Of a stretch of DNA of 40,395 nt, positions 1,314 through 23,408 are shown piece by piece (position 1 is the first letter of the stretch; each line of letters starts with the position of its first letter). Source of the DNA: Bifidobacterium breve (GTDB lineage: Bacteria > Actinomycetota > Thermoleophilia > Miltoncostaeales > Miltoncostaeaceae); the NCBI GenBank assembly GCA_945861935.1, contig CAMAVU010000008.1:1-40395 (forward strand). The letters are read 5' to 3'. The notes under the pieces were generated by a model. It was not told the DNA's origin and searched no databases. It worked only from the letters and a program-made list of their open reading frames with translations. The position numbers and the translations under genes are program-made.

Positions 1314-2828
1314 TCAGGGGGTCCAGCGCCAGATGGTGGCGCGTCCGATCCGGGCAACCGGCTGGAGTGCGTGCCACGGCACGCCCGCCCGTATCGCGCT
1401 CCGGGCAGTGCCCCAGTTCCGGGGCCAGCCCGCCGTGCGCCGCACGGGCCCGGTCACCACATATCCGCCCCGGTACCGAGCCGGATCGGGCAGGGGCAGC
1501 AGCAGGCGCGCCTCGGCCCTCCCTGCCTCATCGAGGAATCCCGGGTCCACCTCGCGGCGCACCGGCAGCCTGCCCAGCGGACGGAAAGCATTCATCTTGG
1601 CCCACCACGTGTAATCCTCGGTGAGCACGGGCCCGGGCGGCAGGTCGCGCAGCGCGGACGTGACCACCGCCACGAGCGCAACATTGGTCGCCCGGTACCC
1701 CGACTGAACATGTGGGCGGGCGGCCACGATGCCGATCACTGCGATCAGGGGGACGAGCAGCGGGCTCGCCCGGCCATCCAGGGCGAAGGCGATCAGCAAT
1801 GCGGCCGGCACAGACAGGAGGGTGAGGAAGCGCAGCGGCTTGTCCACGCTGATCAGGGTGCCCGCTTCGAGATAGAGGAACCCCCACGCCAGCCACGCCA
1901 CAGGAAGCCCGGCGGACGTGATGCGCCGCGTCACGGCCACGGCGATGGCGATGAGGACGAGCGGCAGCGCGAGGAAGAGCGGCGCCGATGGATCCGCGAC
2001 ACCCGTGACCATCTGGGCGAGATAGCCGGTGGTCGCGTGCCAGCCCTCCAGCGGGGATCGGAACGAGCCCGCACCGGCGGCGGAGGTGAGCGGCCAGAGC
2101 GGACGCCCATCCGTGGCGAACACGGCAACCTCCGCGAGGGGTATGGCGGCAATGCCCCCGATCAGCACCCACGTGCGTCGCCATGCCACACGAAGAGCGG
2201 GCCATGCCGCCAGACCCACGACCGGGAGCATCACGAGCGCGGTCTCGCGTACCGACCACGCCGCGCCCAGCAGGACACCGGCGGCCATCAACCACATCAC
2301 CGGGCGGTTGCCACGCCGGGATCGCAGTGCTGCCCACACGGCCAGCGCGATGAACCCCGGCAGTACCGCGTCCGGCCGGAGGCGTGTGGCCCACAGCACC
2401 TCGAGGGGGGCGAATGCCACCAGCCCGGCGGCGACGAGCGCGGGCCTCCTGCCCCCGATCTCACGGCCGATCAGGAACACCGCGAGGATGGAGAGCAGCG
2501 AGCAGGCGAGTGGCCACGCGACGGCGCGGTAATCGTCGGCACCCGCGATCCGGAAGATCACGGCCACGGGCCAGAGGAATACGGCACGGGATCCGAACCA
2601 TTCGGCCTCGCCGTCGGGGAGCATCCCCCCGGCGAGGTTCTGCGCCACCGCGACGTATCGCGCGTCGTCATCTCCGAGACCGAATTCGAGCCCCCCGAAC
2701 GCCCAGATGCGCACGGCTCCCCCGAGCACGAGCAGGGCAGCGACCGCGAGCCCCGTGAGCACCTGTGTGTTCCGGAGGTACCGGGCGGCCATCGTCGCCA
2801 CGCGCCGGCCGGAGTTCCCGGCGGTCAT
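1314..2828 (-). CDS. GT-C fold membrane glycosyltransferase (GT39/ArnT-like)
   Basis: A 504-residue polytopic membrane protein. After a short basic N-terminus and first helix (about residues 20-40) comes the first extracytoplasmic loop with GDDDARYVAVAQNL, the acidic DD/DA-x-Y motif typical of GT39/PMT-like enzymes that use polyprenyl-phosphate sugars. Multiple hydrophobic helices follow to about residue 390, with a soluble C-terminal tail of about 100 residues. The likely role is transfer of a lipid-carried sugar onto a glycan or protein outside the membrane. The ATG at 2828 overlaps the stop of the MviN-like gene (ATGA), which supports this start over a later internal ATG. The specific donor and acceptor cannot be read from sequence. 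Confidence 0.8.
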   Translation of the reverse strand: MTAGNSGRRVATMAARYLRNTQVLTGLAVAALLVLGGAVRIWAFGGLEFGLGDDDARYVAVAQNLAGGMLPDGEAEWFGSRAVFLWPVAVIFRIAGADDYRAVAWPLACSLLSILAVFLIGREIGGRRPALVAAGLVAFAPLEVLWATRLRPDAVLPGFIALAVWAALRSRRGNRPVMWLMAAGVLLGAAWSVRETALVMLPVVGLAAWPALRVAWRRTWVLIGGIAAIPLAEVAVFATDGRPLWPLTSAAGAGSFRSPLEGWHATTGYLAQMVTGVADPSAPLFLALPLVLIAIAVAVTRRITSAGLPVAWLAWGFLYLEAGTLISVDKPLRFLTLLSVPAALLIAFALDGRASPLLVPLIAVIGIVAARPHVQSGYRATNVALVAVVTSALRDLPPGPVLTEDYTWWAKMNAFRPLGRLPVRREVDPGFLDEAGRAEARLLLPLPDPARYRGGYVVTGPVRRTAGWPRNWGTARSAIRAGVPWHALQPVARIGRATIWRWTP

Positions 2829-4375
2829 CGTCTCCGGGCGAAGGAGAGGTTCCGCAGTGAGGTTCGTGCATCCGCGAATTCGCGCGGGGCGATGACGCGC
2901 GCGAGGCTCACGAAGCCCACGCCCCCCACGCCGAAGACCACGGCCAGCCACGCCGCGGCGCCCCAGAAGGTGCCCGTGCCATCGGGCATGAGGAACGCCG
3001 GCACCAGTGCGATGGCCCCGGCGACGGCACCTGCAACGAGGATGCGGCCCTGCTGCACGCCGAGGGCGCGGATGGACAGTTGCGGGGCGCGGCGGCGCAG
3101 GAACCACAGGGTGATGCCCGTGTTCGCATACACGGCGATGGCGCTGGCAAGGGCGAGGCCGGCTTGCTCGAGGGGACCGAGAAGGATCAGGTCGAGGGCG
3201 ATGGTCAGTGCCACGGTGATGACGGTGGCGATCATGATCTCGCGGGCATGGTTGTCGGCCGACAGCGTGCGGTTCAGCAGGTATCCGAGGAAGTTGCCCC
3301 ACACCGCGACGCCGTAGAAGGCGAGGGGCGCCCCGATCTCCGCGACGCAGGCGGTGTCGCACTGACCCCGCCCGAAGGCCACCTGTGCGATCTGGGTGGC
3401 GCCGATGAACATGAGGATCGACAACGGGATCGCCACGAGGGCGAGAATGCCGGCGGCGCGACGGAAGGCATTCACGCCGTCGTCCCTGCGGCCCTCCGCA
3501 AAGAACCGCGCGATCAGTGGGAATAATGGGATGAGCAGGGGGAACAGCAGTGCCGTCCGTGGTGCCGACCCGAGGGCATTGGCGAACGACAGTGCCGCGT
3601 TGCGCCCGGCCTCGAGTGAGGATGCGAACAGTTTGTCTGTGAACGAGTTGACCTGCTGCAAGATGGATGCGGCGGCCACCGGGATGGCGAGGACGGCCAC
3701 CGATCCCAGCCGTGGATGCGAGAGGGCCAGGCGCATGCCGCCACCGGCCCGTGATTCGCGCCTGAACTGCGGGATCTGGAGCAGTACCTGCAGCACCGCG
3801 CCCAGTGCGACGCCCCAGGCGGCTGCGGTGATCCCGATGCTGCCGGCCCCGACGATGACGCCGAGAAGGATTCCCGCATTGAAGGCCACGCCCACCGCTG
3901 CCGGGCCGGCGAAGCGACCGTGCACCTGCAGGATGGCGGTGAACAGAGCCGAGAAGCCCTGCAGCATGAGCGCTGGCGCCATGACCCGCAGGAGGTCCGA
4001 GGCGATGGCGGCGCGCTCGGGCCCCATCTGGAACAACCAGATGAACGCCTCGGGCACGATGGCCACGAGCCCGGTGAGCACGATCAGGGCGATCCCGATC
4101 CATGCCGCGATGACCCATAAGAGGCCCCAGGCGCTGTGCGCTCCGGATTGCTCGCGCTCCTGCTGGAAGACCGGGATCATCAGAGTGGTCAGCACGTACA
4201 GGAGAACGGCCGCGACGGTGTTGACCACGAACAGGGCGTTCACGAGGGCGTCGGTGGCGGCAGTTGCGCCGTAGACGCCGGCGAGCACCATTTCGCGCAC
4301 GAGGCCGAGAATCCGCGAGAGGATTCCGAAGAGCGCAACGACAGCCGCCGCGCGCGCGACCTGCCGGATGCTCAT
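2825..4375 (-). CDS. MviN/MurJ-family lipid-linked glycan flippase
   Basis: A 516-residue MOP-superfamily membrane protein with about 14 hydrophobic segments. The first helix region SRILGLVREMVLAGVYGA followed by ATDAL matches MviN/MurJ, including the conserved Arg and Asp of the central cavity. The NxxRRLFAEGA-type signature that follows in housekeeping MurJ is absent: here the region reads NTVAAVLLYVLTTLMIP. No Wzx-type flippase is seen elsewhere in the cluster, so this protein probably translocates the lipid-linked exopolysaccharide unit and is not the lipid II flippase itself. It is coupled at both ends by ATGA overlaps, to the beta-propeller gene upstream and the GT-C gene downstream. 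The family call is firm; the substrate is inferred. Confidence 0.85.
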   Translation of the reverse strand: MSIRQVARAAAVVALFGILSRILGLVREMVLAGVYGATAATDALVNALFVVNTVAAVLLYVLTTLMIPVFQQEREQSGAHSAWGLLWVIAAWIGIALIVLTGLVAIVPEAFIWLFQMGPERAAIASDLLRVMAPALMLQGFSALFTAILQVHGRFAGPAAVGVAFNAGILLGVIVGAGSIGITAAAWGVALGAVLQVLLQIPQFRRESRAGGGMRLALSHPRLGSVAVLAIPVAAASILQQVNSFTDKLFASSLEAGRNAALSFANALGSAPRTALLFPLLIPLFPLIARFFAEGRRDDGVNAFRRAAGILALVAIPLSILMFIGATQIAQVAFGRGQCDTACVAEIGAPLAFYGVAVWGNFLGYLLNRTLSADNHAREIMIATVITVALTIALDLILLGPLEQAGLALASAIAVYANTGITLWFLRRRAPQLSIRALGVQQGRILVAGAVAGAIALVPAFLMPDGTGTFWGAAAWLAVVFGVGGVGFVSLARVIAPREFADARTSLRNLSFARRR

Positions 4376-5613
4376 GGTGCGGGCTTCATCCCGTACAGGG
4401 TCCGTACCCCGGTGAGTACGAGGAGGCCCTCCACGCCGACGGCCGGGGTGTAGCGGCCATCACCGAACGTGAAGACCGGTTGCCCGGTGTGTGTATTCAC
4501 CGCGTAGGTCCGTCCCTCGCTCGGCTCGCGCGCGATGGTGGAGAACCACACCAGGTCGCCGATGACCGTCGGGGATCCCGCGATGCGCTCGCCCGCGTCG
4601 AACGTCCACTGCACGTCACCGGTGATCGCGCTCAGGGCGTAGAGATTCCCGTCGTAGGAACCCACGAAGACGGTCTCGTCGCTGATTGCCGGGCTCGAGT
4701 ACGCCCATCCACCGACCACGCGCACCCAGGCGGCGGACCCGTCCTGCGCGTTCAGGGCCAGGATCCGCCCGTTGACGTTGCTGGCGTAGACCCGGCCATA
4801 GGCCACGGCCGGGTTCGCGTAGAAGGCCCCGGCACTGGCAAGCAGGCGGCCGGGGCTGGTGGCGCGCCAGCGTATCCGTCCGCTGTGCATCCCGAACGAG
4901 GTGATGCGCCCGCCGTAGTCGCCCACGAGCACCTGATCGCGGTACAGGGCAAGGCTGGACTTCACCTCACCCGTGGCGCGAGCGGTCCACAACAGGCGTC
5001 CGGTGCGCACGTCCATGCAGAGGATGAGGCCTCCGAGGGTACCGACGTACGCCCGGTTCCCGACGACGAGAGGTGATGACTCCGTCGAGGCCCCGACGTC
5101 GCGGCGCCACACGACGTGCGAGGTGTCCTGCCGCAGCGCCTCGACGTACCCGTTGATCGTCGTGAACAGGACCAGATCCCCGGCGATGGCGGGGGAGGCC
5201 GCGGACCGCCCGGTGAGCCGCCGTGTCCAGGCGGTCCGTCCGGTCCGGGCATCCAGGGCGAACGCCTTCCGCCGGTTGGTGCCGATGAAGACGCGACCGT
5301 CGTTGATGACCGGCGGGAACTCCAGGAGCGAGCCGAGATCGCGCGTCCACACGCGCTGGTAGGGCGGCGGGAGACTGAGGCCGGGATTGGCCCGCGTGCG
5401 CCCGGCGTCATAGCCGTATTGGGGCCAGGCAGTGGTGCCCGGATGGCCACCTGGCCCGGCGGCGACCTGGAAGCCCTCGGCGGTGCCGATCTGGTCGCCT
5501 TCGTCGAGTCGGCCGGTGATGAGGAGGATGCCGATGAGGACGAGGGCGACCGTGCCGAGGACCCCCGAGATCGTCCATGCGCCGACCCTCTCGGAGCGCG
5601 GGAGCAGCCTCAC
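4372..5613 (-). CDS. Membrane-anchored PQQ-type beta-propeller protein
   Basis: A 413-residue protein with one N-terminal helix (about residues 12-34) and then repeated blades of the form SSPAIxDxxVFVGSxDGxLYAL, each followed by TG...W. These are PQQ-like/BamB-type propeller repeats, about seven or eight in number. No PQQ-dehydrogenase active-site signature is evident, so it is more likely a structural or carbohydrate-binding scaffold outside the membrane than an enzyme. The frame is open further upstream, but the GTG at 5613 lies 13 bp after the Wzz-like stop with a GGCGG ribosome-binding stretch, and the upstream extension is Ser/Pro/Arg-rich out-of-frame shadow of the Wzz gene. The 3' end overlaps the flippase start. 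Confidence 0.82.
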   Translation of the reverse strand: MRLLPRSERVGAWTISGVLGTVALVLIGILLITGRLDEGDQIGTAEGFQVAAGPGGHPGTTAWPQYGYDAGRTRANPGLSLPPPYQRVWTRDLGSLLEFPPVINDGRVFIGTNRRKAFALDARTGRTAWTRRLTGRSAASPAIAGDLVLFTTINGYVEALRQDTSHVVWRRDVGASTESSPLVVGNRAYVGTLGGLILCMDVRTGRLLWTARATGEVKSSLALYRDQVLVGDYGGRITSFGMHSGRIRWRATSPGRLLASAGAFYANPAVAYGRVYASNVNGRILALNAQDGSAAWVRVVGGWAYSSPAISDETVFVGSYDGNLYALSAITGDVQWTFDAGERIAGSPTVIGDLVWFSTIAREPSEGRTYAVNTHTGQPVFTFGDGRYTPAVGVEGLLVLTGVRTLYGMKPAP

Positions 5614-5626
5614 GCCGGAACCGCCG

Positions 5627-6418
5627 CTAGGCGGGCTCGGCGGCGCGCCGGATGCCCCCGCGGGTGGCGAGCGCGATGACCAGACCCAGGAGCAGGCCGA
5701 TGACGCCACCCACGATGGCGGTGCGGACGCGGTTCGATGTGCTGGCGGACGACGAGGCGCCCGTGGCCAGGGTGACGATGGCTGGCGCCTCGATCTGGCG
5801 GACACGCGCCAACTGCAACTCGGACACGGCGAGGAGTTCACGCAGGTCGGCCAGCTGCGTGAGGGTGTCGGGTGAGGGTTGCTGGCCGGCGAGGGCCTGC
5901 AGGCGTACCTCCTCGGCGTACAGGTCCCTGACCTGCTTCTCGAGCGTCACGCTGACCGCCTCGTAGCCGGTGCTGGCGGTGCCCAGTGCAGCCCGGGCGT
6001 AGGCGTTCGCCAAGCGGACCGCGGCGTCCCGGTCCGCCATGGTGGCAGCGATGCTCGCGATGGCCGGCTGGTTGGTGACGACCGTGCCGGGTGCGCGCGG
6101 GACGGAGACATCGGTACGTGCCCGCACCGTGCCGGGCGTGAGCCCCGTGGCCTCGGACACGGCGCCCACCACGTGATCGCCCTGAAGCATCGTGGCTGCG
6201 GTCAACGGATTCGTTCCGGGGGTGGAGGCGAGGTTGCCCATCATCGTGGTGGCCTGACCGAGGTATACGCGCGATGTGGCGGTGTAGGTCGTGTCGGACG
6301 CGAAGGTGATGGCGAAGGCGGCCAGTGCCGCGATGACCGTCGTGGCGACGATGGTCCACCTGCCGCGCCAGAGGACGCGCCCCACATCACCGAGGGTGAT
6401 CTCGCGCTCAGATGCCAC
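5627..6418 (-). CDS. Wzz-like polysaccharide co-polymerase (chain-length determinant), no kinase domain
   Basis: A 263-residue protein with the Wzz arrangement: a short cytoplasmic start (ITLGDVGRVLWRGRW), TM1 at about 20-40, an extracytoplasmic domain with a predicted helical region around 150-215, and TM2 at about 232-252. Actinobacterial and Gram-positive homologues control polymer length with a Wzy polymerase. No Walker A/B tyrosine kinase is fused or adjacent, which is unusual for capsule clusters that have Wzc/CpsD. The start is a GTG inside the upstream ATP-grasp gene (11-nt overlap). The order of neighbours (flippase, propeller, Wzz, initiator) supports assembly-stage function at the membrane. 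Confidence 0.82.
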   Translation of the reverse strand: MASEREITLGDVGRVLWRGRWTIVATTVIAALAAFAITFASDTTYTATSRVYLGQATTMMGNLASTPGTNPLTAATMLQGDHVVGAVSEATGLTPGTVRARTDVSVPRAPGTVVTNQPAIASIAATMADRDAAVRLANAYARAALGTASTGYEAVSVTLEKQVRDLYAEEVRLQALAGQQPSPDTLTQLADLRELLAVSELQLARVRQIEAPAIVTLATGASSSASTSNRVRTAIVGGVIGLLLGLVIALATRGGIRRAAEPA

Positions 6419-7436
6419 CGCTCACCGCCTCCTCGCGGCCGTCCACCGCACGCAGTCCGTCACCGTCGCGCACGAGGATGTGCTCCGACAGGAAGCGTGT
6501 CATCACCACGCCCGCCCTGTGTGTTCCGAGTCGGGGCGCAACGTCCTCCCCGGCTGCCATCGCGAGGATGAGAAACGGGTAGTCGCCACCCGCCGCAAGG
6601 GGAAGCGGGAAGCCACCGCCGAACCGTGTGTTGATGTCCGTGATACCGAGGATGCGCCCGTCCTCGCGGAAGCACTGGATGGTGCAGGGTCCCACCAAGC
6701 CGATCCCCTCAATGACGTCTGCTGCGAGGTCCACAAGTTGGGGGTCGTCGAGTGTTTCGCCCTTGATCTGCTCGCCGCCCTTGCTCTGGTACATCGCCCG
6801 GGGAATGGCCCCGATGGCACGCATCCCCGGCGACGCCAGGCAGTCGATGCTGAACTCCTCCCCGGGGAGCGCCTGCTGCAGCACGCTCGCCACCGGGGTG
6901 CGTGCCAGGAAGAAGTCCAGCTCCTCCTGGTCAGCGCAGCGATGGATCCAGCGCCCGGCGAAGCCGATGCGTGGCTTGATCATGATCGGGTAGGGCAGGC
7001 TGCCCAGGTCCGTGCCCGCGATGGGCCACGTGGGCGGAGAGGGAAGGTCCGCACCCTGCAGCATGTCGTGACACAGCCACTTGTCCTGACATGCGGCGGC
7101 GACACGCGGTGACGGGACGAATACCCTTCCCCCGGCCTGCTCGACAAGGATCTGGGCCTCGGCCAGCACCACCGGATCGAGGTCGGTGAGGGGAAGGACC
7201 GCGCCGACGTCCTCACGGGCCACGGCATCTGCCACCGCCTCGCCGTAGCCCGGGTCGTCCACCGGGGGGAGGTCCACGACGTGGTCGGCCGAGTACAAGG
7301 ACGGCGACAGCGGGTCGAGGTCGCTCACGATCACCCGACCGCCGTCGTCACGGCGCGTGAGGGCATCACGGAATGCGCGCACGATGTCGGCGCGCTGTCC
7401 CGCGCAGGTCAGCAGCACGGAGGAGTGGTCAGCCAC
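6408..7436 (-). CDS. ATP-grasp ligase, carbamoyl-phosphate-synthase-like, exopolysaccharide-cluster type
   Basis: A 342-residue soluble enzyme. The N-terminal pre-ATP-grasp Rossmann-like part (SVLLTCAGQR, VIVSDLDP) is followed by ATP-grasp elements: IMIKPR with nucleotide-binding Lys154, EEFSIDCL, and the metal-binding ITDINTRFGGG around residues 265-275, where the usual Glu is Asp267. Relatives are common in polysaccharide clusters and form amide bonds between a carboxylate and an amine through an acyl phosphate. That suggests decoration of the polymer or a precursor with an amino acid or similar amide, but the substrate is not readable. It begins with GTG inside the 3' end of the sugar transferase gene (8-nt overlap). 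Confidence 0.78.
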   Translation of the reverse strand: MADHSSVLLTCAGQRADIVRAFRDALTRRDDGGRVIVSDLDPLSPSLYSADHVVDLPPVDDPGYGEAVADAVAREDVGAVLPLTDLDPVVLAEAQILVEQAGGRVFVPSPRVAAACQDKWLCHDMLQGADLPSPPTWPIAGTDLGSLPYPIMIKPRIGFAGRWIHRCADQEELDFFLARTPVASVLQQALPGEEFSIDCLASPGMRAIGAIPRAMYQSKGGEQIKGETLDDPQLVDLAADVIEGIGLVGPCTIQCFREDGRILGITDINTRFGGGFPLPLAAGGDYPFLILAMAAGEDVAPRLGTHRAGVVMTRFLSEHILVRDGDGLRAVDGREEAVSGGI

Positions 7437-8139
7437 GTGTTCCCCCGGGCAGGTCGAAGCCCCCCTGCTCGCCGCGGTACTGGCCCTCGCCGCGCAGCAC
7501 CACGCGGACCGTGTCGGCCAGGATGCGCAGGTCGAGGGCGAGGGACCAGGTGTCCACGTACTGCACGTCCAGCGCGATGCGCTCGGACCACGGGATGGCC
7601 GCCCGCCCGCGCACCTGAGCCAATCCGGTGATTCCCGGCCGCGCGATCAGGCGTCGCCGCTGTTCCCCGTCGTAATGGGCCACCTGCGACGGCACCGTCG
7701 GCCGGGGTCCGACGATGCTCATGTCACCCCGGATCACGTTGATGAGTTGCGGCACCTCATCGAGTGACAGTCGGCGCAGCACCCGGCCGGCGCGCGTGAT
7801 GCGGTCGTCATCCTCTGTCACCGCGAGACCGGCGCCCTTGCCCTCGGCACCATCCACCATCGAACGGAACTTGAGGCAGGTGAAGGGGCGCCCGAAGGCC
7901 CCGGCGCGCTTCTGCCGGAACAGGGCGGGCCCCGGCGAGTCCACGCGCACCCATGCCGCAAGCCCGACCATCACGGGCGCCAGCACAATGGCTGCCGGGA
8001 CCGCGATGGCAAGATCGAAAGCGCGCTTGACGGCGCCGCCGACCGGACGGCTGTCCGGGATCGCGCGGCCCTGAGTATCGGGCACGGTGTGCTGCACGTC
8101 TGCATCACGGTAGCGCAGAGGCCCCCCGGCGCGTGTCAT
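7429..8139 (-). CDS. Initiating undecaprenyl-phosphate sugar phosphotransferase (PglC/WcaJ catalytic type)
   Basis: A 236-residue monotopic phosphoglycosyltransferase. After a 36-residue variable N-terminus come KRAFDL and one re-entrant hydrophobic helix (about 42-65), then SPGPALFRQKR, FTCLKFRSM, the catalytic Asp127-Glu128 dyad in SLDEVPQL, and SIVGPRP. Known members load sugar-1-phosphate from a UDP-sugar onto undecaprenyl phosphate on the cytoplasmic face, starting repeat-unit assembly. The short form without the four extra N-terminal helices of WcaJ/WbaP is seen. The ATG overlaps the upstream GT4 stop (ATGA). This is the only initiating enzyme visible in the cluster. The initiating sugar is unknown. 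Confidence 0.92.
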   Translation of the reverse strand: MTRAGGPLRYRDADVQHTVPDTQGRAIPDSRPVGGAVKRAFDLAIAVPAAIVLAPVMVGLAAWVRVDSPGPALFRQKRAGAFGRPFTCLKFRSMVDGAEGKGAGLAVTEDDDRITRAGRVLRRLSLDEVPQLINVIRGDMSIVGPRPTVPSQVAHYDGEQRRRLIARPGITGLAQVRGRAAIPWSERIALDVQYVDTWSLALDLRILADTVRVVLRGEGQYRGEQGGFDLPGGTRG

Positions 8140-9365
8140 CCGGGGTGCGTCGCCATCTGATCCACCAGCGCGGCGAAGCGCCCGGCCAGCACCCTGCGGT
8201 CGTAGTTCCGGAGTGCGTAGGAACGCCCTGCCTCCCCTCGGGCCCGGGCGTCGTCAGGTGTCTCCGCGGCCCGCCGGATGGCTGCGGCCATTGCCACGGG
8301 GTCCTCCGGTGGGACGCTCCACCCACATCTCGCAGCATCCACCAGGCGCGTCAATTCGCCCGTCGGTGCGGCTGCCAGGACCGGTCGGGACGCCGCCAGG
8401 TAGTCGAACACCTTGTTGGGCAGCGCCCCGGCGAACAATGCGCGGTCCTGGTAGGGCAGCAGGCACAGCCCCGCACGTGCCAGATACGCGGGTACCTGGC
8501 GCTTCGGTACCGGGTCAATGAACGTGACGTTCGGCAGGTTCAGGTCGCGGGCCATCTGCACGAGCGCGGGCTTCCGATCGCCGCCTCCCACGAGCACGAC
8601 GCGGATGCCGGGGTGATCCCGGAGCAGATCGGCCGCCCCGAGCACCGTTTCGAGGGACGAGTACGTGCCGTGCGCCCCGACGAACATGGCGATGAAGGCG
8701 TCGTCGGGCACGGGAAGGACCGCCGGGGTGGACGGGTCGGGCACGACGTCAAGATCCACGCCGTTGGTGATGAGGGTGACCCGGTTGGCGGGGACGACGC
8801 CGGACCCGACGATCCCCGACCGGATCCCCTCCGTGAGCGCCACGATGTGGTCGGCACGGCGGTAGCAGTAGTGCTCCATCCGGCGGGCGGCAGCGATGAC
8901 CCGCGGGTTGGAGACCAGCCCCATTTCCACGGCCGAGTCGGGCCAGAGGTCCCGGACCTCCAGCAGGAAGCGTGTCCGCCGCGCACGTGCCATCCCGGCA
9001 GCCACGGCCGCCGCGGGCAGGGATGGCGATGAGGCGATGACCACATCCTGCCGCGGCAGTTGCAGTTCGGCGATCAGTGACCAGAGGGCGAACGTGCCGT
9101 AGTTCGAGAGGCGCGAGCGCAGGTCACGGCCATACCCGGGGGTCGAATAGGTCCGCACCACCTCGAGGCCGTCCTCCGTGGAGTGCACGATGCGCCGCCC
9201 GCGGTACTCCTCGGGCACTGTGCGCTCCTTGTGCTGCACGTACGAGGTGACCACCGTCACGTCGTGGCCCGCACGCGCCAGCGCACGGCAGTGCTGCCAG
9301 TGGCGCACACCACCGGGCTGGTCCCCGCTGACGAAGTACTGCGACACGTACAGGACCCGCGCCAT
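8136..9365 (-). CDS. GT4 glycosyltransferase (WbuB-like)
   Basis: A 409-residue GT-B fold retaining glycosyltransferase. The N-terminal domain shows LYVSQYF...GGVRHWQHCRALARAGHDVTVVTSY and LLEVRDLWPDSAVEMGL, the pattern of WbuB-type transferases that act early in O-antigen units. The C-terminal donor domain has FVGAHGTYSSLETVLGAA, VGGGDRKPAL and ALPNKVFDYLAASRPVLA. Its coupling with the initiating phosphotransferase (4-nt overlap) and the WbuB resemblance suggest it adds the second sugar. The ATG overlaps the upstream stop by one base (TGATG). Confidence 0.88.
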   Translation of the reverse strand: MARVLYVSQYFVSGDQPGGVRHWQHCRALARAGHDVTVVTSYVQHKERTVPEEYRGRRIVHSTEDGLEVVRTYSTPGYGRDLRSRLSNYGTFALWSLIAELQLPRQDVVIASSPSLPAAAVAAGMARARRTRFLLEVRDLWPDSAVEMGLVSNPRVIAAARRMEHYCYRRADHIVALTEGIRSGIVGSGVVPANRVTLITNGVDLDVVPDPSTPAVLPVPDDAFIAMFVGAHGTYSSLETVLGAADLLRDHPGIRVVLVGGGDRKPALVQMARDLNLPNVTFIDPVPKRQVPAYLARAGLCLLPYQDRALFAGALPNKVFDYLAASRPVLAAAPTGELTRLVDAARCGWSVPPEDPVAMAAAIRRAAETPDDARARGEAGRSYALRNYDRRVLAGRFAALVDQMATHPG

Positions 9366-11707
9366 CAGCCGAGCACCTCCGCGTAGAAGGTGGTGAGCGC
9401 GTCGGCCTCCCGTTCGAAGGTGAGGCCGTCGAGGAATGCCGCGCGCCCTGCGCGCCCCATGTCCTGCGCGGCGACCGGATCCTCGAGCAGCCTGCGGATG
9501 GCCGCGGCGTGCGCTGCGGGATCGTCGGCGGGCACGACGATCCCGCAGCCGGTCGTCCGCACGATCGCTGCCATGCGCGGCAGGTCGCTCGCCACGACCG
9601 GGCGCCCCATGGCCATGGCCTCCACGAGTTTGGTGGGCACCGCGCGGTCATAGTTGCCGTGCCGCCGCAGGGGGATCCAGGCGACCGATGCGCGGGAGAG
9701 CAGCAGCGGCACCTCCGAGTGGTCCACCACGCCGAGGTGCTCGACTCCGGGAGGGAGGTCGCCCGGATCGCCCGGGCCGGCCAGGAGGAGCCGGGCACCG
9801 GGGACACCCACCTGAGGAAATGCCTCGAGCATGAGCGGGAGCCCACGCAGCGGTCCGAGGCCACCGACGTACAGCACGATGCCCCCCTCGGGCTCGCCTG
9901 CCGCCGAGAACTCCGAGGCGAAGGGGCTGTTGGCCACGCTGACCGAACGGCAGCCCGCCGCCGCGAACCGCGCCGCGAGATCCTCGTTGGCCGCCACGAC
10001 GCCGCCGAGCCGCCGCCCGGCCACACGCTCGGCGCCGGACGCCAGAGCGGCCACGGGTCGGCGCAGCGGGCCGGGGATCCACCGCTTGGTGCGCGTCGTC
10101 TCGCCCAGATACTCATGGGCGTCGTAGATGACCGGCCGCCCCGTGGTGCGCTGGAGCCACAGGGCCTGCGGCAGCAGTTCCGGATCATGCACGTGGTAGG
10201 CATCGGCCTTCATGCCGCGCGCACGCCGGGCGAGCCGCCAGCCAGCCCGGAGCCGGTGGATCCGGCGCGCGGGCTCATCGAGTGCGAGGACCGTGGTCTC
10301 CGCCCCGGCATCCTCCATCGCCCGGGCCTCCTTGTGGAAGATCCGTACGTCACGGGGCCGGTGCACGCTGGTGAGGTGGACGATGTGGCGTCCGTCCAGC
10401 CGTGCGCCAGGCGCGACGGGGATGGGTGCGATGGGCCCCATGCGCGCACCCCGGGCCTGCAGGTCATCGAGCAGGTTCTCCCAGAGCAGGTCGTAGCCGG
10501 GTGCGCGTTCGTCTGCGAGATAGGTGTTGTGCCACAGCAGGGCAGCCGCACCGCCGGTCCGGCGCACGGCATCGAGCACGTGCAGCGCCCGCTCGCGGGC
10601 CTCGTCGGGTGCCAGCCCCAGGTGCGAGTGCAGGGTGGTGTCCATGACGGCGAGTGGCACGAGCGTGACGCGAGCCTCGCGCTCCTCGCCCACGATCCAG
10701 GGGCGGAAGGGCCGGGCGTACCCGGCTGCGAACCCCGGGCGCTCGCTGAACCCCAGGCTGGCGTCGTACTCCAGGCCGGCACGCTCCACGCGGAGCGGCG
10801 TGTCGTGGTACCGGAAGCGCAGGTAGTGGAACCTGACCCCGCGCACCTGCCCGGCCTCCTCCCTGAGGATCGCCACCTCGGCCCGCAGGGCATCCTCCGA
10901 CTCCGATGATGCGAAGGCGCCATGCAGGGCGACCTCGGACCCGGCCGCGCGGACAGCGGCGGCGAGGTGCCGGCGCTCCCGCTCGTAGGTGCGCCGGGGC
11001 GTGCCGTCGAGGCGATGCTGGTTACGGCCGATCAGGAACACGGTGGCGCGCAGGCCGCGGCGCCACGTGGTTTCCAGTAGGTCGGGCACGTTGTCCCACG
11101 GGTCATGGCCCGGCAGGTCGCGCAGGGCGTGCAGGTGCCGGTGCTTGAGCGATCGCGCAATGCCGCGCGGGGTGCGCCGCCGGATGCGGTCGATGTCGTG
11201 GGTGAGGAAGATCGTCCAGGCATCGGGCGCCGGCACCCCGAGGGCGGTGCGCAACGCGGCGAGGTAGCCCTCAACAGCCGGCTCCTCGATGTCCAGCCCG
11301 TTGATGACCCCGAACGCGCTGCGGCTGAAGGGCAGACGACCGAACCGGTCGCGGTCGGCAACGCGGTACTCATCCCACCGTGCGAGGAGGTAGAAGGCGC
11401 TCGCCACGATGTCCCCGGGGATGGCCCGGTCCGGTGCGGCCGGCGGGAACAGCAGGGTCAGGCCGCCCGCGACATGCACAGCGGGACCGGGGAATGCCTC
11501 CTGCCCCTCGAAGAACGCCTGCGCGTCATCCTGCAGCGGTATCCACGTGCCCGACGCGGGGGGCACCGGGGCATACACGAGGTCGGCATCGCCATCTGTG
11601 ACCACCAGATCGCGGTCCATTCCGCGTGCGAGAGTGCGGAGCACCCACTCCGCGCGTGGGCGGAACGCAGGGCGGCAGCCCTCAATGCGCACCCTGAGGG
11701 CCGTCAC
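9365..11707 (-). CDS. Fusion of polysaccharide deacetylase (DUF7033-like) and GT4 glycosyltransferase
   Basis: A 780-residue two-enzyme protein in one unbroken frame. Residues 1-430 are a carbohydrate-esterase-4-like deacetylase with an N-terminal DUF7033-like region: FLTHDIDRI (Asp171, Asp173), EVALHGAFAS (His262), RFHYLRFRYHD, then YDASLGFSERPGFAAG and LLWHNTYL. Residues from about 438 are a GT4 enzyme: HIVHLTSVHRPRDVRIFHKEA, AYHVHDPELL, VIYDAHEYLGE, VLYVGGLGPLRGL and AVPTKLVEAMAMGRPVVA. No signal peptide is seen, so the deacetylase half probably works in the cytoplasm on a nucleotide- or lipid-linked sugar. The GTG start overlaps the upstream ATP-grasp stop (GTGA). Such deacetylases are normally separate genes next to GT4 genes. 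Confidence 0.85.
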   Translation of the reverse strand: MTALRVRIEGCRPAFRPRAEWVLRTLARGMDRDLVVTDGDADLVYAPVPPASGTWIPLQDDAQAFFEGQEAFPGPAVHVAGGLTLLFPPAAPDRAIPGDIVASAFYLLARWDEYRVADRDRFGRLPFSRSAFGVINGLDIEEPAVEGYLAALRTALGVPAPDAWTIFLTHDIDRIRRRTPRGIARSLKHRHLHALRDLPGHDPWDNVPDLLETTWRRGLRATVFLIGRNQHRLDGTPRRTYERERRHLAAAVRAAGSEVALHGAFASSESEDALRAEVAILREEAGQVRGVRFHYLRFRYHDTPLRVERAGLEYDASLGFSERPGFAAGYARPFRPWIVGEEREARVTLVPLAVMDTTLHSHLGLAPDEARERALHVLDAVRRTGGAAALLWHNTYLADERAPGYDLLWENLLDDLQARGARMGPIAPIPVAPGARLDGRHIVHLTSVHRPRDVRIFHKEARAMEDAGAETTVLALDEPARRIHRLRAGWRLARRARGMKADAYHVHDPELLPQALWLQRTTGRPVIYDAHEYLGETTRTKRWIPGPLRRPVAALASGAERVAGRRLGGVVAANEDLAARFAAAGCRSVSVANSPFASEFSAAGEPEGGIVLYVGGLGPLRGLPLMLEAFPQVGVPGARLLLAGPGDPGDLPPGVEHLGVVDHSEVPLLLSRASVAWIPLRRHGNYDRAVPTKLVEAMAMGRPVVASDLPRMAAIVRTTGCGIVVPADDPAAHAAAIRRLLEDPVAAQDMGRAGRAAFLDGLTFEREADALTTFYAEVLG

Positions 11708-12873
11708 GATGCCCGCCGCCGGATGATGCGGCCCACCTGCCCCAGACCCGGCCCCGGATCGCCGAGCGACATGACGCCGTCCACGACCGGCGGGCGGAGC
11801 GTGGCCATCGCGTCCCGACGGCCCCAGTGCCCCTGCCGCACCTCACCCGCGGTGGCAGGGAGATGCCGTGCCGAGAGCATCCAGCGCACGTCGCTGCGGT
11901 GGCCCTCGGGCCACGTCCGGGGGCGGCCCACGGCATCCAGATAGGCGGCCAGCGGGATGTTCACGCCCACCGCGGTGGCGAGCGAGACCCACAGCCACGA
12001 GCGGGGGTTCACCTCGATGAGGTAGTCCCGCCCATCCCGCGGGTCGCGTTTGACCTCGACCTGTGAGATGCCGTGGAACCCCATCTCGTCCAGCAGGGCG
12101 TGCCCGCGGCGGGCCACGCCGGGATCCCACCAGGCCTCGGCCGCCCGCGCTGTGCCGAACCCGGGGGGCCACTGGCGCAACTTGCGTCCTGTGAACGATG
12201 CGAGTGGCTGCCCGGTCGTATCGCGGTAGCTGCCGAGCGTCCAGAGGGCATCATCACCACCGGGGATCACCTCGCACACCTGCGGGCGATGTGCGGCTGA
12301 GCGGTGCCACTCCACGAGCAGTTCTTCGGGGTTCCCGGCCTGCAGCACCTGGCGTCCGAAGGTCCGCTTGAAGCCCGCAGGGTCGCGGCGGGGCTTCAGG
12401 ATCACGGGGAACCGCAGGTCACGCCCCATTGCCCGCAGGTCGTCCTCGTCGTCGGGCTCCACCGTGACCGGCACGGGGAACCCGATCCGCCGCGCCGCCG
12501 CGTGCTGGGCCGACTTGTCGAGGTATGGCGCCAGACGGGCCCACGGGCTCCAGGGCGTGTCGAACCACCGGGCGAGGCGCTCCTCGTGGGGACCAATGGC
12601 CTCGATGGCCTCGTCGTGCGTGGGGAAGAGCACGCCGCGGCCCGGGAGCGAGCGCCCAAGTGCCTCGAGTTCGTGGACGAACCGCGCGGGGTCGTCCACG
12701 GGATCGGGCAGCACTGCCGTCCGGCAGTGGCGGGAGCGCAGTCCCATCGCGTGTGGATCATGGTCAGTGGCGATTACGGGCACGCCCTCGATCGCAAGGG
12801 AGCGGATGATGCCGAGGGCGTTGGGGCCGGATGCCTGCAGCACCACGGCGACGGATTCGCCGGGTACCGTCAT
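11704..12873 (-). CDS. ATP-grasp carboxylate-amine ligase-like enzyme
   Basis: A 389-residue enzyme of a different ATP-grasp subfamily from the one at 6408. The N-terminal domain VAVVLQASGPNALGIIRSLAIEGVPV binds a substrate or nucleotide. The core has PVILKPRRD (ATP-binding Lys), CEVIPGGDDALW, and VEVKRDPRDGRDYLIEVNPRSWLW with the metal-binding Glu-x-Asn. Homologues sit in surface-polysaccharide clusters near GT4 and deacetylase genes. The likely chemistry is ATP-dependent ligation of an amino group to a carboxylate. The ATG at 12873 is preferred to the longer open frame because it overlaps the preceding stop (ATGA) and starts the conserved domain. The substrate is unknown. Confidence 0.78.
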   Translation of the reverse strand: MTVPGESVAVVLQASGPNALGIIRSLAIEGVPVIATDHDPHAMGLRSRHCRTAVLPDPVDDPARFVHELEALGRSLPGRGVLFPTHDEAIEAIGPHEERLARWFDTPWSPWARLAPYLDKSAQHAAARRIGFPVPVTVEPDDEDDLRAMGRDLRFPVILKPRRDPAGFKRTFGRQVLQAGNPEELLVEWHRSAAHRPQVCEVIPGGDDALWTLGSYRDTTGQPLASFTGRKLRQWPPGFGTARAAEAWWDPGVARRGHALLDEMGFHGISQVEVKRDPRDGRDYLIEVNPRSWLWVSLATAVGVNIPLAAYLDAVGRPRTWPEGHRSDVRWMLSARHLPATAGEVRQGHWGRRDAMATLRPPVVDGVMSLGDPGPGLGQVGRIIRRRAS

Positions 12874-14066
12874 GCCGGTATCACCGCCTCGTACACGGCC
12901 TCCATGCGCCGGGCATTGGCGGCCCACGTGTAGTCGGTCCCGGAACGGATCAGGGCCTCGGCACCCATGGCGGCACGGAGGGCGGGGTCGTCGAGCACCC
13001 GCGCGAGCGCCGCGGCCAGCCCAACGGGATCGCGCGGTTGCACGAGCAGCCCGGTGGCGGGGTCGTCGACGATCTCGGGAGTTCCGTCCACGGCGGTGGC
13101 CACGACCGGAAGGCCGCAGGCCATTGCCTCGCAGACCACTGTGGGCAGGCCTTCGGAGAGCGAGGGCAGCACGAACACATCGCCCGTGGACATCACCCAG
13201 CCCACGTCGTCGTGGGGGACCTTGCCGAGCCAGGTGATGTGGTGCGCGACGCCCAGTGCGGCCGCCCGGTGCTCCAGCGGCTCCCGCAATTCGCCGATGC
13301 CGGCCATCACGAGTCGCGGGGCGCCGCCCTCGCGTGCGGCGAGGAGGCCCATCGCCTCGATGAGCGCGTCCACTCCCTTTCGCGGCACCAACTTGCCAAC
13401 GAACGACACGACCAGTCCGTCCTCGGGGATGCCGATGCGCCTGCGCGCCTCGCCGGGATCCCGCGGCAGGAAGACCTCGGCATCTGCGCCGTTCGGCACC
13501 ACCGTGATGGGACGCCGCGGGCGCGCGATGGCATCGGCGGCGTCGCCGATGGCGCGGCTTACCGTGACCACGGCGTCGAGGGTCTGAATGGCCTCGGCGA
13601 CCCTCATCCGCGACTTGGGTCCTTCCGCGGGCACGTCGAGCACGTCGGCCCGGTGCGCCGTGCCGACCACCGGCACGCCCATCTCATGACCGATACGTGC
13701 GGCGGCCCACCCGTCGGGCACCATCATGTGGGCGTGGATCACGTCGAACGGCCACTCCTCGTGGATCCGTCGCACCGTCGTGCGAATACCCAGCAGGAAC
13801 GCATCCGCGTTGCGGTGGCCCAGGCGGCCCCCGGGCAGGGTGACCTTGCGTGGGTAGTACACGGTGATGCCATCAACGGTGTCCCGCGGCACCACGTCCC
13901 TGTACGCCGCCCACCGGCGCAGGCCGGGCGGTGCCCATCCCTTCGGCGACACCACGCGCACGTCGTGCCCGCGGTCCCGCAGCGCCTTGACCTGCTCGTG
14001 CACGAAGACGCCACCGGTCGGGTTGACCGGGCTGGGGTACATGTGGCTGATCATCAGGATCCTCAC
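12870..14066 (-). CDS. GT4 glycosyltransferase
   Basis: A 398-residue GT-B enzyme. It begins VRILMISHMYPSPVNPTGGVFVHEQVKAL, the acceptor-domain start of WcaL/PimB-like GT4 proteins, with FDVIHAHMMVPDGWAA and VVGTAHRADVLD next. The donor domain shows VVPNGADAEVFLP, VVSFVGKLVPRKGVDALIEA and LPSLSEGLPTVVCEAMACGLPVVAT with the sugar-nucleotide Glu. The GTG at 14066 is chosen because it overlaps the polymerase stop (GTGA); the frame upstream is only a shadow of that gene. It probably adds one sugar of the repeat unit in the cytoplasm. Linkage and donor cannot be assigned. Confidence 0.88.
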   Translation of the reverse strand: MRILMISHMYPSPVNPTGGVFVHEQVKALRDRGHDVRVVSPKGWAPPGLRRWAAYRDVVPRDTVDGITVYYPRKVTLPGGRLGHRNADAFLLGIRTTVRRIHEEWPFDVIHAHMMVPDGWAAARIGHEMGVPVVGTAHRADVLDVPAEGPKSRMRVAEAIQTLDAVVTVSRAIGDAADAIARPRRPITVVPNGADAEVFLPRDPGEARRRIGIPEDGLVVSFVGKLVPRKGVDALIEAMGLLAAREGGAPRLVMAGIGELREPLEHRAAALGVAHHITWLGKVPHDDVGWVMSTGDVFVLPSLSEGLPTVVCEAMACGLPVVATAVDGTPEIVDDPATGLLVQPRDPVGLAAALARVLDDPALRAAMGAEALIRSGTDYTWAANARRMEAVYEAVIPA

Positions 14067-15520
14067 CGACCCACCTCGTTCCCCGTCGTGCGCCGTGCGA
14101 GCACGATGGTGGTGAGGCAGAGCCCGAAGGTGATCCACATGGGGGCGAAGTGGATCGCGCTGGACGGCCCCAGGCTGCCCAGCAGGAACCCGAGCAGGGC
14201 GAGCGCGCCCGACAGGCCCATGTACCGCAGCCACGGGTCGTGGGTGCGCCGCGCCACGCGGAGGTTGCCCACGAGCGCGTAGAGGTACAGCGCGCCAAAG
14301 AGCGCCAGGCCGATGATCCCGGTGTCCACCAGCACCTCGAGGGCCCAGTTGTGCAGGTTGGCGACGCCCGCGTAACCCTCCTGCTCGCGCACCACGACCT
14401 CCGCGTTGCCCGCTCCTACACCGATGCCCCCGCTGCGTGCGGCGATGCTGATGCCCGTCCCGAGAAGTGACGAGCGGACGGCCCCCGAGCCCGATCCGCT
14501 TTCCACCTGGTCCTGAAGGACGCCGAAGTCGAGTTTCACCACCGCCTGCTCAGGAAGCGGCACGATGCCCGCCCCGAACATGGACGGGACGATCAGCATG
14601 ATCGACAGGCCGACCACCGCGACGGCCGCCATGAAGGCGCGTCGCATCGCGGGATCGGTGGCGAGCACGACCAGGATCCCCAGCAGGATGATGCCGGTGG
14701 CGAGCAGGTTCGCCTTGGATCCCGAGAACAGGATGAGGACGATGGCCGTCGCGGCCCCGGCAAGCCCGAGCGCGCGCAGCCGGATGTCGCGGGCGATGAT
14801 GGGCAGCACGAGGAGGTACGGCAGCGCGAGCGCGAGGTACGTGGCGAAGTTGTTCTGGTTGCCGAAGAACGACGTGGCCGCAAAGGCCCCCACCTTCTCC
14901 GCCAGCGCGCTGGTGGGAAGCCGGAAGCCGGTGGCGATCTCGGCGAGTGCCACCAGCACGGCGACCACGAATGTCAGCCCGAGGGCCCCGAGGAACCATG
15001 CGAGGCGCCGGCGTGTGGACGCCGCCAGAGGAATCGCCAGCATGAGCCCGCTCATCATGAGCAGGAAGATGGTCCAGCGCAGCGCGTCGGCCGTGGAGGT
15101 TGCCCACAGCGTCGAGACCAGAGCCCATCCCGTCCAGCCCGCGGCGATGGCGGCGGGCCATCCGAGGCCGTCCGGAACCGGCACGCCGCGGCCCAGGAGC
15201 AACCAGGTGCCGATGCCGAGGACGATGAGGCCGGCGAGGACCCGGAATGCGAAGGCCTCCCTCGCAGCCGGCACGGCCAGATTCGGACCGACGAGAGCGG
15301 TGACCATGGCCACGAGCACTGCCGCGCGTCCCAGATCGGGAAGTGCGACACGGCCGAGCAGCACGACGCCGAGCAGCACGATCGCCAGCACCGTGCCCGG
15401 GACCGGCGCGAATGCCGCGAGCGCACCGGCGCACAGCGCGGCAAGAAGGGCGAGGGTCGCGGCGCGGGTGCCGGGCCCCCCGGACGCGCCGGACGACCGC
15501 ATCGGAGCGGGTGCCGACAT
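14063..15520 (-). CDS. O-antigen polymerase/ligase family membrane protein (Wzy-type), copy 2
   Basis: A 485-residue protein with about 11-12 membrane helices. The hallmarks of the Wzy/WaaL superfamily are visible: FFGNQNNFATYLALALPYLL before a middle helix, FSGSKANLLATG, and after the large extracytoplasmic loop (about residues 300-390) VGAGN...NLHNWALEVLVDTGIIGLALF with the conserved His. Members join lipid-linked repeat units or transfer the polymer to an acceptor. The train holds a second such protein at 16641-18227, so one may polymerise and the other ligate. A 38-bp gap precedes it, one of the few real gaps in the train, and contains a TACCGT box 9 nt before the ATG. Confidence 0.87.
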   Translation of the reverse strand: MSAPAPMRSSGASGGPGTRAATLALLAALCAGALAAFAPVPGTVLAIVLLGVVLLGRVALPDLGRAAVLVAMVTALVGPNLAVPAAREAFAFRVLAGLIVLGIGTWLLLGRGVPVPDGLGWPAAIAAGWTGWALVSTLWATSTADALRWTIFLLMMSGLMLAIPLAASTRRRLAWFLGALGLTFVVAVLVALAEIATGFRLPTSALAEKVGAFAATSFFGNQNNFATYLALALPYLLVLPIIARDIRLRALGLAGAATAIVLILFSGSKANLLATGIILLGILVVLATDPAMRRAFMAAVAVVGLSIMLIVPSMFGAGIVPLPEQAVVKLDFGVLQDQVESGSGSGAVRSSLLGTGISIAARSGGIGVGAGNAEVVVREQEGYAGVANLHNWALEVLVDTGIIGLALFGALYLYALVGNLRVARRTHDPWLRYMGLSGALALLGFLLGSLGPSSAIHFAPMWITFGLCLTTIVLARRTTGNEVGR

Positions 15521-21110: not shown

Positions 21111-22141
21111 CGCACCGTCCCCGCGATGCGGACGGCGGTCGTGCGCTTCGTCGTCACGTGGCTGCCCGTCCCGGTGGTACGGGACACGCGCTCGAACACC
21201 ACCACTCGCGTGCCGTCGGTGGCCACTGCGGCGATCGGCCCGTGAGCGCTGGCCACCGTGCGGGCGGTACCCCCGCGGCTGGCGAGGATGGTGCGCCCGG
21301 CGCCGATGACGATCGCCTGCCCGCCAACCCCGACCTGCGGACGCACGGACCCCCGCCAGACCACACGCACGTCGCCCGTCGCCGTATCGGTGCGGGTGAC
21401 GCGCCACCCGGCCGCCCGGACCACTGCCACCACGAACCCCGGGAGGGCGCGCACCTGGACGACCTGCCCGCCCTGCGCGACCTCACGGATGCCGGACACC
21501 CCGGCGTCGGATGGCACGCCGATGCGAATGGCCGTTCCCCCCAGGTCGGCCCACGTGGCGATGCCCTGCGATATCGATGCCAGCCCGGGACCCGGATTCC
21601 CGGGGATCGGCGCAGACGTTGCGCGCTCGGCGTTCTCCACGGGGTCAGCCGATCCGAGGACGGCTCCTGCCGGGCCGGTGGCGATCCAGCGCACCCGCGC
21701 ACCGTCGAGGCCCACCCCATAGGGACGCGGTGCCGCACCGTCGCCGTCGCTCGACACCACCACCTCGACGTGTTCCGGCGTGCAGCACCAGATGACGGGG
21801 CCGGCGAAGGCCGCGCCGGTCGCGGCGAGCGTGAAGTCGCCCGGCGTGCCGGTGGCCCGGATCTCGCCCGCGGCGAGCGGACCGGCGCTGGTGCGGACGA
21901 CCACCGGCTTGCCGCCTGAGACGATGTGCGTGCCCGAAACGCGGGCGGTGCCGACATCGGTGCGCCAGTACGTGAAGGTCCTGGTCTTCGCGGGCTGGGC
22001 GTCGGACCACACGAGGGTGCCGTCCGACATGTCCGCGCGGATCGTGCCCCAGCCGCCGAGGCTGGCTGCCGATGCCGTCCCCGTCGTGGCGACGGCGAGC
22101 AGGGCTGTGACGGCGCCGGCCAGACCGATGCCCTGCCTCAT
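21107..22141 (-). CDS. Secreted beta-rich protein of unknown function
   Basis: A 344-residue protein starting with a clear signal peptide (MRQGIGLAGAVTALLAVATTGTASA). The mature part is beta-rich, Gly/Val/Thr-rich, with loosely repeated units such as VWSDAQ, VRWIATG, IATWADLGG and VVFERV spaced about 40-50 residues apart, so a small beta-propeller is possible. There is a CC pair (WCCTPEH). No catalytic motif is recognised. Its position between the oxidoreductase and the hydrolase, with ATGA overlaps on both sides, suggests it works with the exported hydrolase. Confidence 0.7.
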   Translation of the reverse strand: MRQGIGLAGAVTALLAVATTGTASAASLGGWGTIRADMSDGTLVWSDAQPAKTRTFTYWRTDVGTARVSGTHIVSGGKPVVVRTSAGPLAAGEIRATGTPGDFTLAATGAAFAGPVIWCCTPEHVEVVVSSDGDGAAPRPYGVGLDGARVRWIATGPAGAVLGSADPVENAERATSAPIPGNPGPGLASISQGIATWADLGGTAIRIGVPSDAGVSGIREVAQGGQVVQVRALPGFVVAVVRAAGWRVTRTDTATGDVRVVWRGSVRPQVGVGGQAIVIGAGRTILASRGGTARTVASAHGPIAAVATDGTRVVVFERVSRTTGTGSHVTTKRTTAVRIAGTVR

Positions 22142-23286
22142 ACGCCGGGCCCCGGCTGCTCTGCCCGCGCGCGGATCGCGGCAACGGCGTCACGCAGCAG
22201 CGCTTCGCTCGCAGCGGCCCGGGTGGGGTCGGCCAACGGGGTCATGTTGGTCAACTGCACGTGCTCTGCCCCGGCAGCATGAAGGGCAACGACCTGCCCG
22301 GCGACGTCGTCGGGTGTCCCGTGGATGACCGTGCCGAGCAGCACCTCATCGGGCACAGCCGCTGCCAGCCGGATTGCCTCCTCCCGGCCGACCCGCGTCG
22401 GCGCGAAGGACGTGAGGCCGAAGGCCCCGGCCCCGAGCGGATGCGCAGCGCCCACGGCCTCGAATGCCTCCGACGGGCGCGTGAGCGCGATGAAGCGCAT
22501 CAGCAGGGAGTCGAGAACGATGCGTCGTGCCTCGGCGGAGTCATCCGCGACGACCACACGGCAGTACGCGCCCGCGGTCACGGCCTCGTCGGGGCGCCCG
22601 GCGGCGCGTTGGGCCGTGCGTACCTGCGCGAGCATCGCCGCATATCCGGGTGCATCGGTCGCGAGGGGGAACCAGCCGTCGGCCAGCCGCCCTGCAAGGG
22701 CCATGCCGCGCGGCCGGTGCGCGGCCACCCAGATGGGCGGTGGAACATCGCCCAGCGGGCGGAGGCCCATGAACGCGCCCTCCAACCGGAACACATCGCC
22801 GTCGTAGTCCACGGGGCCGGGGTCGGTCATGAGCAGCCGCATGACCTCGAGCCCCTCCTCCAGTCGCCTGAGCGGCAGGGGATTCGACATCCCGTAGGGG
22901 GTCAGGTTCAGGTCCTCACCGGTGCCGACGCCCAGGAGGAACCGGCCGCCGGTGACGTGATCGAGGGTGAGCGCGGTCTGGGCGAGACTGGCCGGGTTGC
23001 GCCGCACGAGGTCCGTGACGCCGATTCCGAGTCGCACCGTCGAGGTCACGGCCGCCGCCGCGGCGATGAGCGGCACCGGGTCCATCCACGTGTGGGGGTT
23101 GGGCGCCGAGGCGGCCTGCGGCACGAGGTCGGGCGTCCATATGCCCAGGGGGAACCAGTGCAGCAGGTGGTCGGCCCACCAGACCGCATCGAAGCCGTCT
23201 GCCTCACGCGCCACCACGGCCGCAATCGCGGCCTCGGCCGGTGGCCGGGCCGAGCCCATGGCGGAGATCTCGAGGGCGCGTCCCAT
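22138..23286 (-). CDS. LLM-class F420-dependent oxidoreductase-like protein
   Basis: A 382-residue luciferase-like TIM barrel. Typical features are GFDAVWWADHLLHWFP, STVRLGIGVTDLVRRNPASLAQTALTLDHVTGGRFLLGVGTGE, and PPIWVAAHRPRGMALAGRLADGWFP. In Actinomycetota this family mostly uses coenzyme F420 (some use FMN) for hydride transfer. It is the first gene of the minus-strand train. The ATG at 23286 begins the conserved core; the frame continues upstream but runs into the divergent gene's opposite strand and is Arg/Pro-rich. Whether it acts on the polymer, on its lipid carrier or on something unrelated cannot be told. Confidence 0.82.
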   Translation of the reverse strand: MGRALEISAMGSARPPAEAAIAAVVAREADGFDAVWWADHLLHWFPLGIWTPDLVPQAASAPNPHTWMDPVPLIAAAAAVTSTVRLGIGVTDLVRRNPASLAQTALTLDHVTGGRFLLGVGTGEDLNLTPYGMSNPLPLRRLEEGLEVMRLLMTDPGPVDYDGDVFRLEGAFMGLRPLGDVPPPIWVAAHRPRGMALAGRLADGWFPLATDAPGYAAMLAQVRTAQRAAGRPDEAVTAGAYCRVVVADDSAEARRIVLDSLLMRFIALTRPSEAFEAVGAAHPLGAGAFGLTSFAPTRVGREEAIRLAAAVPDEVLLGTVIHGTPDDVAGQVVALHAAGAEHVQLTNMTPLADPTRAAASEALLRDAVAAIRARAEQPGPGV

Positions 23287-23302
23287 CGCGGCATCGAGGC
23301 TA
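23287..23302 (-). promoter_or_regulatory. Candidate promoter of the exopolysaccharide train
   Basis: On the minus strand TAGCCT (23302-23297) is followed by 10 nt and the ATG at 23286. It lies in the 122-bp gap between divergent operons. There is no obvious -35 or Shine-Dalgarno sequence. The spacing is at the long end for a leaderless start. Confidence 0.35.
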
Positions 23303-23394
23303 GCGAAGCCCGGGGGTCCGGGAGCAAGCGAGGGTCCGGGGTCACCTCCCTCGACCGGGAATCGCCCCCGCCGGGCCGGTTCCAGCCCCAGTGC

Positions 23395-23408
23395 GATACT
23401 CCCGCGAC
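23395..23408 (+). promoter_or_regulatory. Candidate -10 for leaderless transcription of the plus-strand operon
   Basis: GATACT (23395-23400) lies 8 nt before the ATG at 23409, with no Shine-Dalgarno sequence between. The GTG at 23391 is in the same frame but would overlap the -10 box, which favours the ATG. The rest of the divergent gap (23303-23394) shows no clear hairpin or operator. Confidence 0.45.

Follow-up and report, generated by a model that had tools for sequence, protein, structure and literature searches.

The window, i.e. the whole stretch of 40,395 nucleotides that was analysed, encodes in a single reading frame a putative VimE-like deacetylase joined to a GT4 glycosyltransferase (GT), and this fusion is genuine and old and is kept throughout most of the order Miltoncostaeales. 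The chances seem to us about even that the protein is a cytoplasmic enzyme with two activities, encoded in a surface-glycan operon of the flippase/Wzz type, in which a Wbp-type sugar would be deacetylated, capped by an ATP-grasp protein and transferred by the GT4 half. A little-studied order makes one protein of two sugar enzymes that are kept as two neighbouring proteins in related bacteria, and the fusion and the adjacent ligase probably make a cell-surface amino sugar of an unusual kind.

The fused protein and its two halves

The gene (11707..9365, minus strand) starts with GTG and encodes 780 amino acids with no internal stop, in agreement with the in-frame fusion of a deacetylase and a GT4 enzyme described in the earlier note. 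The motifs quoted there were all found (THDID at residue 169, HGAFAS at 262, HYLR at 294, VLYVGG at 611 and PTKLVEAMAMG at 691), and the join, which had been placed near residues 430-440, lies at about residues 425-441. The gene overlaps both flanking genes, by 4 nt (11704-11707) with the upstream ATP-grasp gene and by 1 base (9365) with the downstream GT4 gene, and is therefore tightly placed within the operon (Table 1). The protein has neither a signal peptide, a hydrophobic N-terminal stretch being absent, nor a transmembrane stretch, which supports the cytoplasmic location predicted earlier. The AlphaFold model of the whole fusion protein has a mean pLDDT of 92 and a pTM of 0.88.

Table 1. 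Parts of the fusion and neighbouring operon genes, with positions in the window
Feature	Position	Strand	Basis or remarks
MurJ/Wzx-like flippase, conserved in operon	2825..4375	-	Sequence reading, synteny; no family scan
PQQ-like beta-propeller repeat protein, conserved in operon	4372..5841	-	Sequence reading, synteny; no family scan
Wzz chain-length determinant	5627..6418	-	Pfam
PylC-like ATP-grasp, second candidate ligase of the operon	6408..7436	-	Pfam
Initiating sugar-phosphate transferase (Bac_transf)	7429..8139	-	Pfam
WcaI/WbuB-like GT4, directly downstream of fusion	8136..9365	-	Pfam, NCBIfam
Fusion, GT4 (GT-B fold) half, residues 442-780 (about; 442-779 also given)	9368..10384	-	Pfam and fold matches
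Fusion, linker, residues 425-441 (about)	10385..10435	-	Weak conservation
Fusion, deacetylase half, residues 1-424 (about)	10436..11707	-	DUF7033 and VimE/CE4-like catalytic domain
ATP-grasp ligase, directly upstream of fusion	11704..12927	-	4-nt overlap with fusion; ATP-grasp fold
GT4 glycosyltransferase, upstream member of conserved operon	12870..14234	-	Pfam, synteny
Multi-pass O-antigen ligase/polymerase-like protein, conserved upstream member	14063..15520	-	Sequence reading, synteny; no family scan

A domain search of both halves, as the earlier note had suggested, returned a DUF7033/VimE-like first half and a GT4 second half. In brief, Pfam places DUF7033 at residues 97-175 and a sub-threshold Polysacc_deac_1 match at residues 205-303, and the best NCBIfam match of the deacetylase half is VimE (NF053580; residues 96-416, E=1.5e-34, 119 bits), a model that NCBIfam names UDP-2,3-diacetamido-2,3-dideoxy-glucuronate deacetylase. 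Since the equivalog cut-off of NF053580 is 440 bits, the deacetylase half with its 119 bits is a homologue of VimE, not a certified VimE. Unfused, archaeal and Bacteroidota relatives of the deacetylase likewise have VimE as their best match in NCBIfam, and a Parabacteroides relative is over the cut-off (732 bits).

A CE4 (NodB homology) domain is recognized by a catalytic Asp in motif 1 and by Asp-His-His metal ligands. The aligned fused and unfused relatives show no variation at THDxD, H262, R292, H294, H301, D315 and WH393. The deacetylase half lacks the second His that CE4 motif 2 usually has, and H294 or H301 may stand in for it. The best 50 Foldseek matches listed were all to the GT half and none to the deacetylase fold, and a sequence-profile search of the PDB gave a single weak deacetylase match (3rxz, E=0.041).

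The GT half carries GT4 domains at residues 607-755 and 453-590 (Pfam) that score above the Pfam cut-offs (PF13692, 80.9 bits vs 27; PF00534, 64 bits vs 26.4), and its best fold matches are GT4 structures, including Campylobacter PglA, PimA and BshA; both the GT-B fold and the above-threshold domains that define GT4 enzymes are thus present. In its EX7E motif, the first Glu is not conserved.

Conservation of the fusion and its origin

Among the 42 genomes of the order Miltoncostaeales that were searched, 29 encode the full-length, stop-free fusion and 10 more contain pieces of it that end at contig edges. It is missing in three genomes (G004, G006 and G016, the last of which is only 80% complete); in G006, a shortened relic (L150:8431-9450) is located at the same site, the deacetylase half and the C-terminal GT half being gone and the operon neighbours kept. 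This search for further genomes with the fusion had been suggested in the earlier note, which also named two ways in which the fusion could prove illusory. The first, an assembly error at the junction, is ruled out by the uninterrupted frame in 29/42 genomes, all separate assemblies. The second, that homologues always encode two proteins with a conserved stop at the join, does not hold either, as homologues are split in a sister family, not always, and no stop occurs at the join within the order. Whole-protein copies with 78-85% identity were also found in metagenome bins labelled Bifidobacterium breve or Acidobacteria (L001, L011 and L003); the contigs resemble this order, and their public labels are probably mistaken.

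When the source sequence was compared with five relatives, dN/dS was about 0.15-0.18 for the deacetylase half and 0.10-0.17 for the GT half, both of which are subject to purifying selection; the 17-residue linker, with values of about 0.34-0.66, is relaxed.

In the sister family (f2, another family of the same class), the deacetylase and the GT are encoded by separate neighbouring genes in the same order, which often overlap (by 4 nt in loci L145 and L147); adjacent separate genes, which the earlier note had proposed to look for, thus exist. Indeed, the gene order of the f2 loci (a polymerase-like gene, a GT4 gene, one or two ATP-grasp genes, the deacetylase gene, a GT4 gene and, later, another GT4 gene and Wzz) matches that of the fused loci. 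The fusion thus joined two operon neighbours. An f2 GT used as query had a match in 39 genomes of the order, and in 37 of these the best one was the GT half of the fusion, the exceptions being G004, where a stand-alone GT is best, and G021, where the GT half of the fusion is not assembled. The GT half is somewhat nearer to stand-alone GTs of Chloroflexi (45% identity) than to f2 GTs (34-41%), which leaves its vertical descent likely, not certain.

A single f2 genome (L134) has a deacetylase-GT fusion of its own, with a low-complexity linker of roughly 75 residues. Because the deacetylase of L134 clusters with those of f2 and not with the fused clade of the order, this is apparently a second, independent fusion, found in one genome only. 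An ATP-grasp-deacetylase fusion in L138 was set aside, as an ambiguous base in the frame makes the join unreliable.

In the order, the fusion is kept across 12 genera with no fission seen, and this retention, together with the purifying selection on both halves, argues against a fusion devoid of catalytic meaning, in which a stop would have been lost between co-expressed neighbours and the enzymes would work independently on a non-Wbp nucleotide sugar. We consider this explanation rather unlikely, even with the points in its favour, namely the short and weakly conserved linker, the long low-complexity linker of the other fusion, the separate genes with which the sister family works and the indirect nature of the Wbp link described below. 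A coupled action of both halves is plausible because the unfused relatives are encoded side by side, often with an overlap; co-expression and fixed stoichiometry account for the fusion equally well as the substrate channelling put forward in the earlier note.

Operon context and proposed function

The presence of the Bac_transf gene in the operon indicates that the glycan is assembled on a lipid carrier. An ATP-grasp homologue is encoded directly upstream in the examined fused loci and beside the deacetylase in the f2 loci, and an ATP-grasp gene, which the interpretation in the earlier note had left aside, adjoins the deacetylase in nearly every locus. In L141 (family f11), it lies directly upstream of the deacetylase without an adjacent GT; in two f3 loci (L148 and L208), it lies close by without adjoining the deacetylase in the same orientation; in L149, it was not seen. 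A Methanosarcina plasmid likewise encodes an ATP-grasp homologue (2e-31), annotated as 'hypothetical protein', upstream of its deacetylase. Tandem duplicated ATP-grasp genes were observed upstream of the unfused deacetylase in five f2 loci (L135, L137, L139, L145 and L146). The AlphaFold model of the upstream protein (pLDDT 91) has an ATP-grasp fold, and a fold search with it returned ATP-grasp enzymes of a generic kind, namely biotin carboxylases and an L-amino acid ligase, by which the substrate is not fixed; this protein is a candidate amino-acid or carboxylate ligase that would act on the exposed amine.

The PylC-like ATP-grasp gene is itself conserved in most examined loci of the order, and it is noteworthy that a single glycan operon contains two enzymes of the ligase type. 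Elsewhere in the glycan region, a 597-aa frame (22138-23931, minus strand) has a C-terminal luciferase-like monooxygenase domain and an N-terminal part without Pfam match.

Furthermore, contig C65 of the same genome encodes a wecB/wbpI-type epimerase, a nucleotide-sugar dehydrogenase (wbpA-like), a WbpB-like Gfo/Idh/MocA enzyme (best family: UDP-GlcNAc 3-dehydrogenase) and a WbpD-like hexapeptide acyltransferase. For WbpE, two DegT candidates are present (contigs C18 and C35), and none was identified confidently in the genome. The C65 dehydrogenase, Gfo/Idh/MocA and hexapeptide proteins match counterparts around the haloarchaeal deacetylase relatives, which lie in or near acyltransferase-DegT-Gfo/Idh-NDP-sugar dehydrogenase clusters with a GNAT gene. 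A WbpB-like gene is found in 40/42 genomes of the order; outside it, DUF7033 and WbpB-like genes co-occur (25/29 vs 74/128, Fisher p=0.005, relatedness ignored). Co-occurrence with Wbp precursor genes, a criterion used here for VimE, is thus seen in this genome. The Wbp genes are located on a separate contig from the fusion here, are about 39-85 kb distant in three better assemblies and are also present in the fusion-less genomes G004, G006 and G016, so that the Wbp link is indirect, supportive and not decisive.

As for the substrate, the order of the steps, the ATP-grasp reaction and any channelling, we infer the following. The deacetylase half would be a VimE-like metal-dependent N-deacetylase removing an N-acetyl group, most likely from a nucleotide-linked 2,3-diacetamido-uronic acid, the product of the Wbp pathway. 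The freed amine would be capped with an amino acid or another carboxylate, probably by the upstream ATP-grasp protein in the part ascribed to VimA in Porphyromonas, and the GT4 half would most likely pass the deacetylated or re-acylated sugar to the undecaprenyl-linked oligosaccharide begun by the Bac_transf enzyme.

The deacetylase half could also act after transfer, on the lipid-linked oligosaccharide sugar just made by the GT half. The fusion and the gene adjacency are compatible with either order, and the initiating transferase and the flippase-like gene of the operon imply lipid-linked substrates; however, VimE-like relatives adjoin nucleotide-sugar genes without a fixed GT partner, no GT gene directly adjoins the haloarchaeal and Methanosarcina deacetylases, and some relatives of the same class have an ATP-grasp gene without adjacent GT, which makes a post-transfer action unlikely. 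Finally, GlcNAc units are common targets of CE4 enzymes, but UDP-GlcNAc or lipid-linked GlcNAc, the substrate suggested in the earlier note, is very improbable here, as VimE is the best family match, the Polysacc_deac_1 match is sub-threshold and Wbp-type genes occur both in the genome and around the archaeal relatives.

Comparison with known systems

In Porphyromonas gingivalis, where the genes vimA, vimE and vimF are mutually adjacent, the proposal is that VimE takes the C-2 acetyl off the product of the Wbp pathway, that VimA attaches serine or glycine and that VimF transfers the linking sugar (PMC7468200, PMC13086638); the removal of the 2-N-acetyl group from UDP-2,3-diacetamido-glucuronate by VimE is a proposal and not a purified-enzyme result (PMC7468200). 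As in the vim operon, a VimE-like deacetylase adjoins a GT, the gene of a possible amine-acylating enzyme is close and Wbp-type genes are encoded in the genome. In contrast, deacetylase and GT are one protein here, and the partner is an ATP-grasp protein whereas VimA is acetyltransferase-like. For a GNAT/FemAB-like protein of the VimA type, the sole Acetyltransf_6 match of the genome is weak (E=4.9e-6), outside the operon and at most a candidate VimA; the position of VimA is filled by the ATP-grasp gene. With phmmer, the GT half showed no similarity to the GT encoded near vimE in Parabacteroides, so that a VimF homologue is unsupported by this comparison, made with the Parabacteroides GT and not with P. 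gingivalis VimF itself. As the deacetylase half misses the VimE cut-off and the GT half has no recognisable kinship with the tested vim-cluster GT, the locus is not filed as a Vim operon. An exosortase-linked glycan system was set aside, PF09721 being absent from all 42 genomes of the order.

The retained fusion of a VimE-like deacetylase and a GT4 enzyme is natural evidence that both act on linked steps. It bears on the Wbp/Vim linking-sugar pathway, whose deacetylation step has so far been inferred, and the recurring ATP-grasp neighbour suggests an alternative means of capping the freed amine. An actinobacterial Wbp/Vim pathway, in which an ATP-grasp protein would replace VimA and one protein would deacetylate and transfer, giving a surface 2,3-diamino-uronic acid that carries an amino acid as a possible protein-attachment site, is a tentative extension that we hold to be somewhat unlikely.

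No earlier description of a VimE-like-GT4 fusion was found in the open papers that were searched (subscription journals not covered). The haloarchaeal plasmid clusters L212 and L213 share with the present locus a homologous deacetylase, an apparent Wbp/Vim context and, near one cluster, an ATP-grasp gene, but their deacetylase is stand-alone and not fused to a GT. Another deacetylase-glycosyltransferase fusion of Actinomycetota is Streptomyces MatB, a NodB-like deacetylase fused to a PgaC-like GT2 (PMC4391728); in contrast to this poly-GlcNAc-type synthase fusion, the protein described here joins a VimE-like domain to a soluble GT4 within a flippase-type operon.
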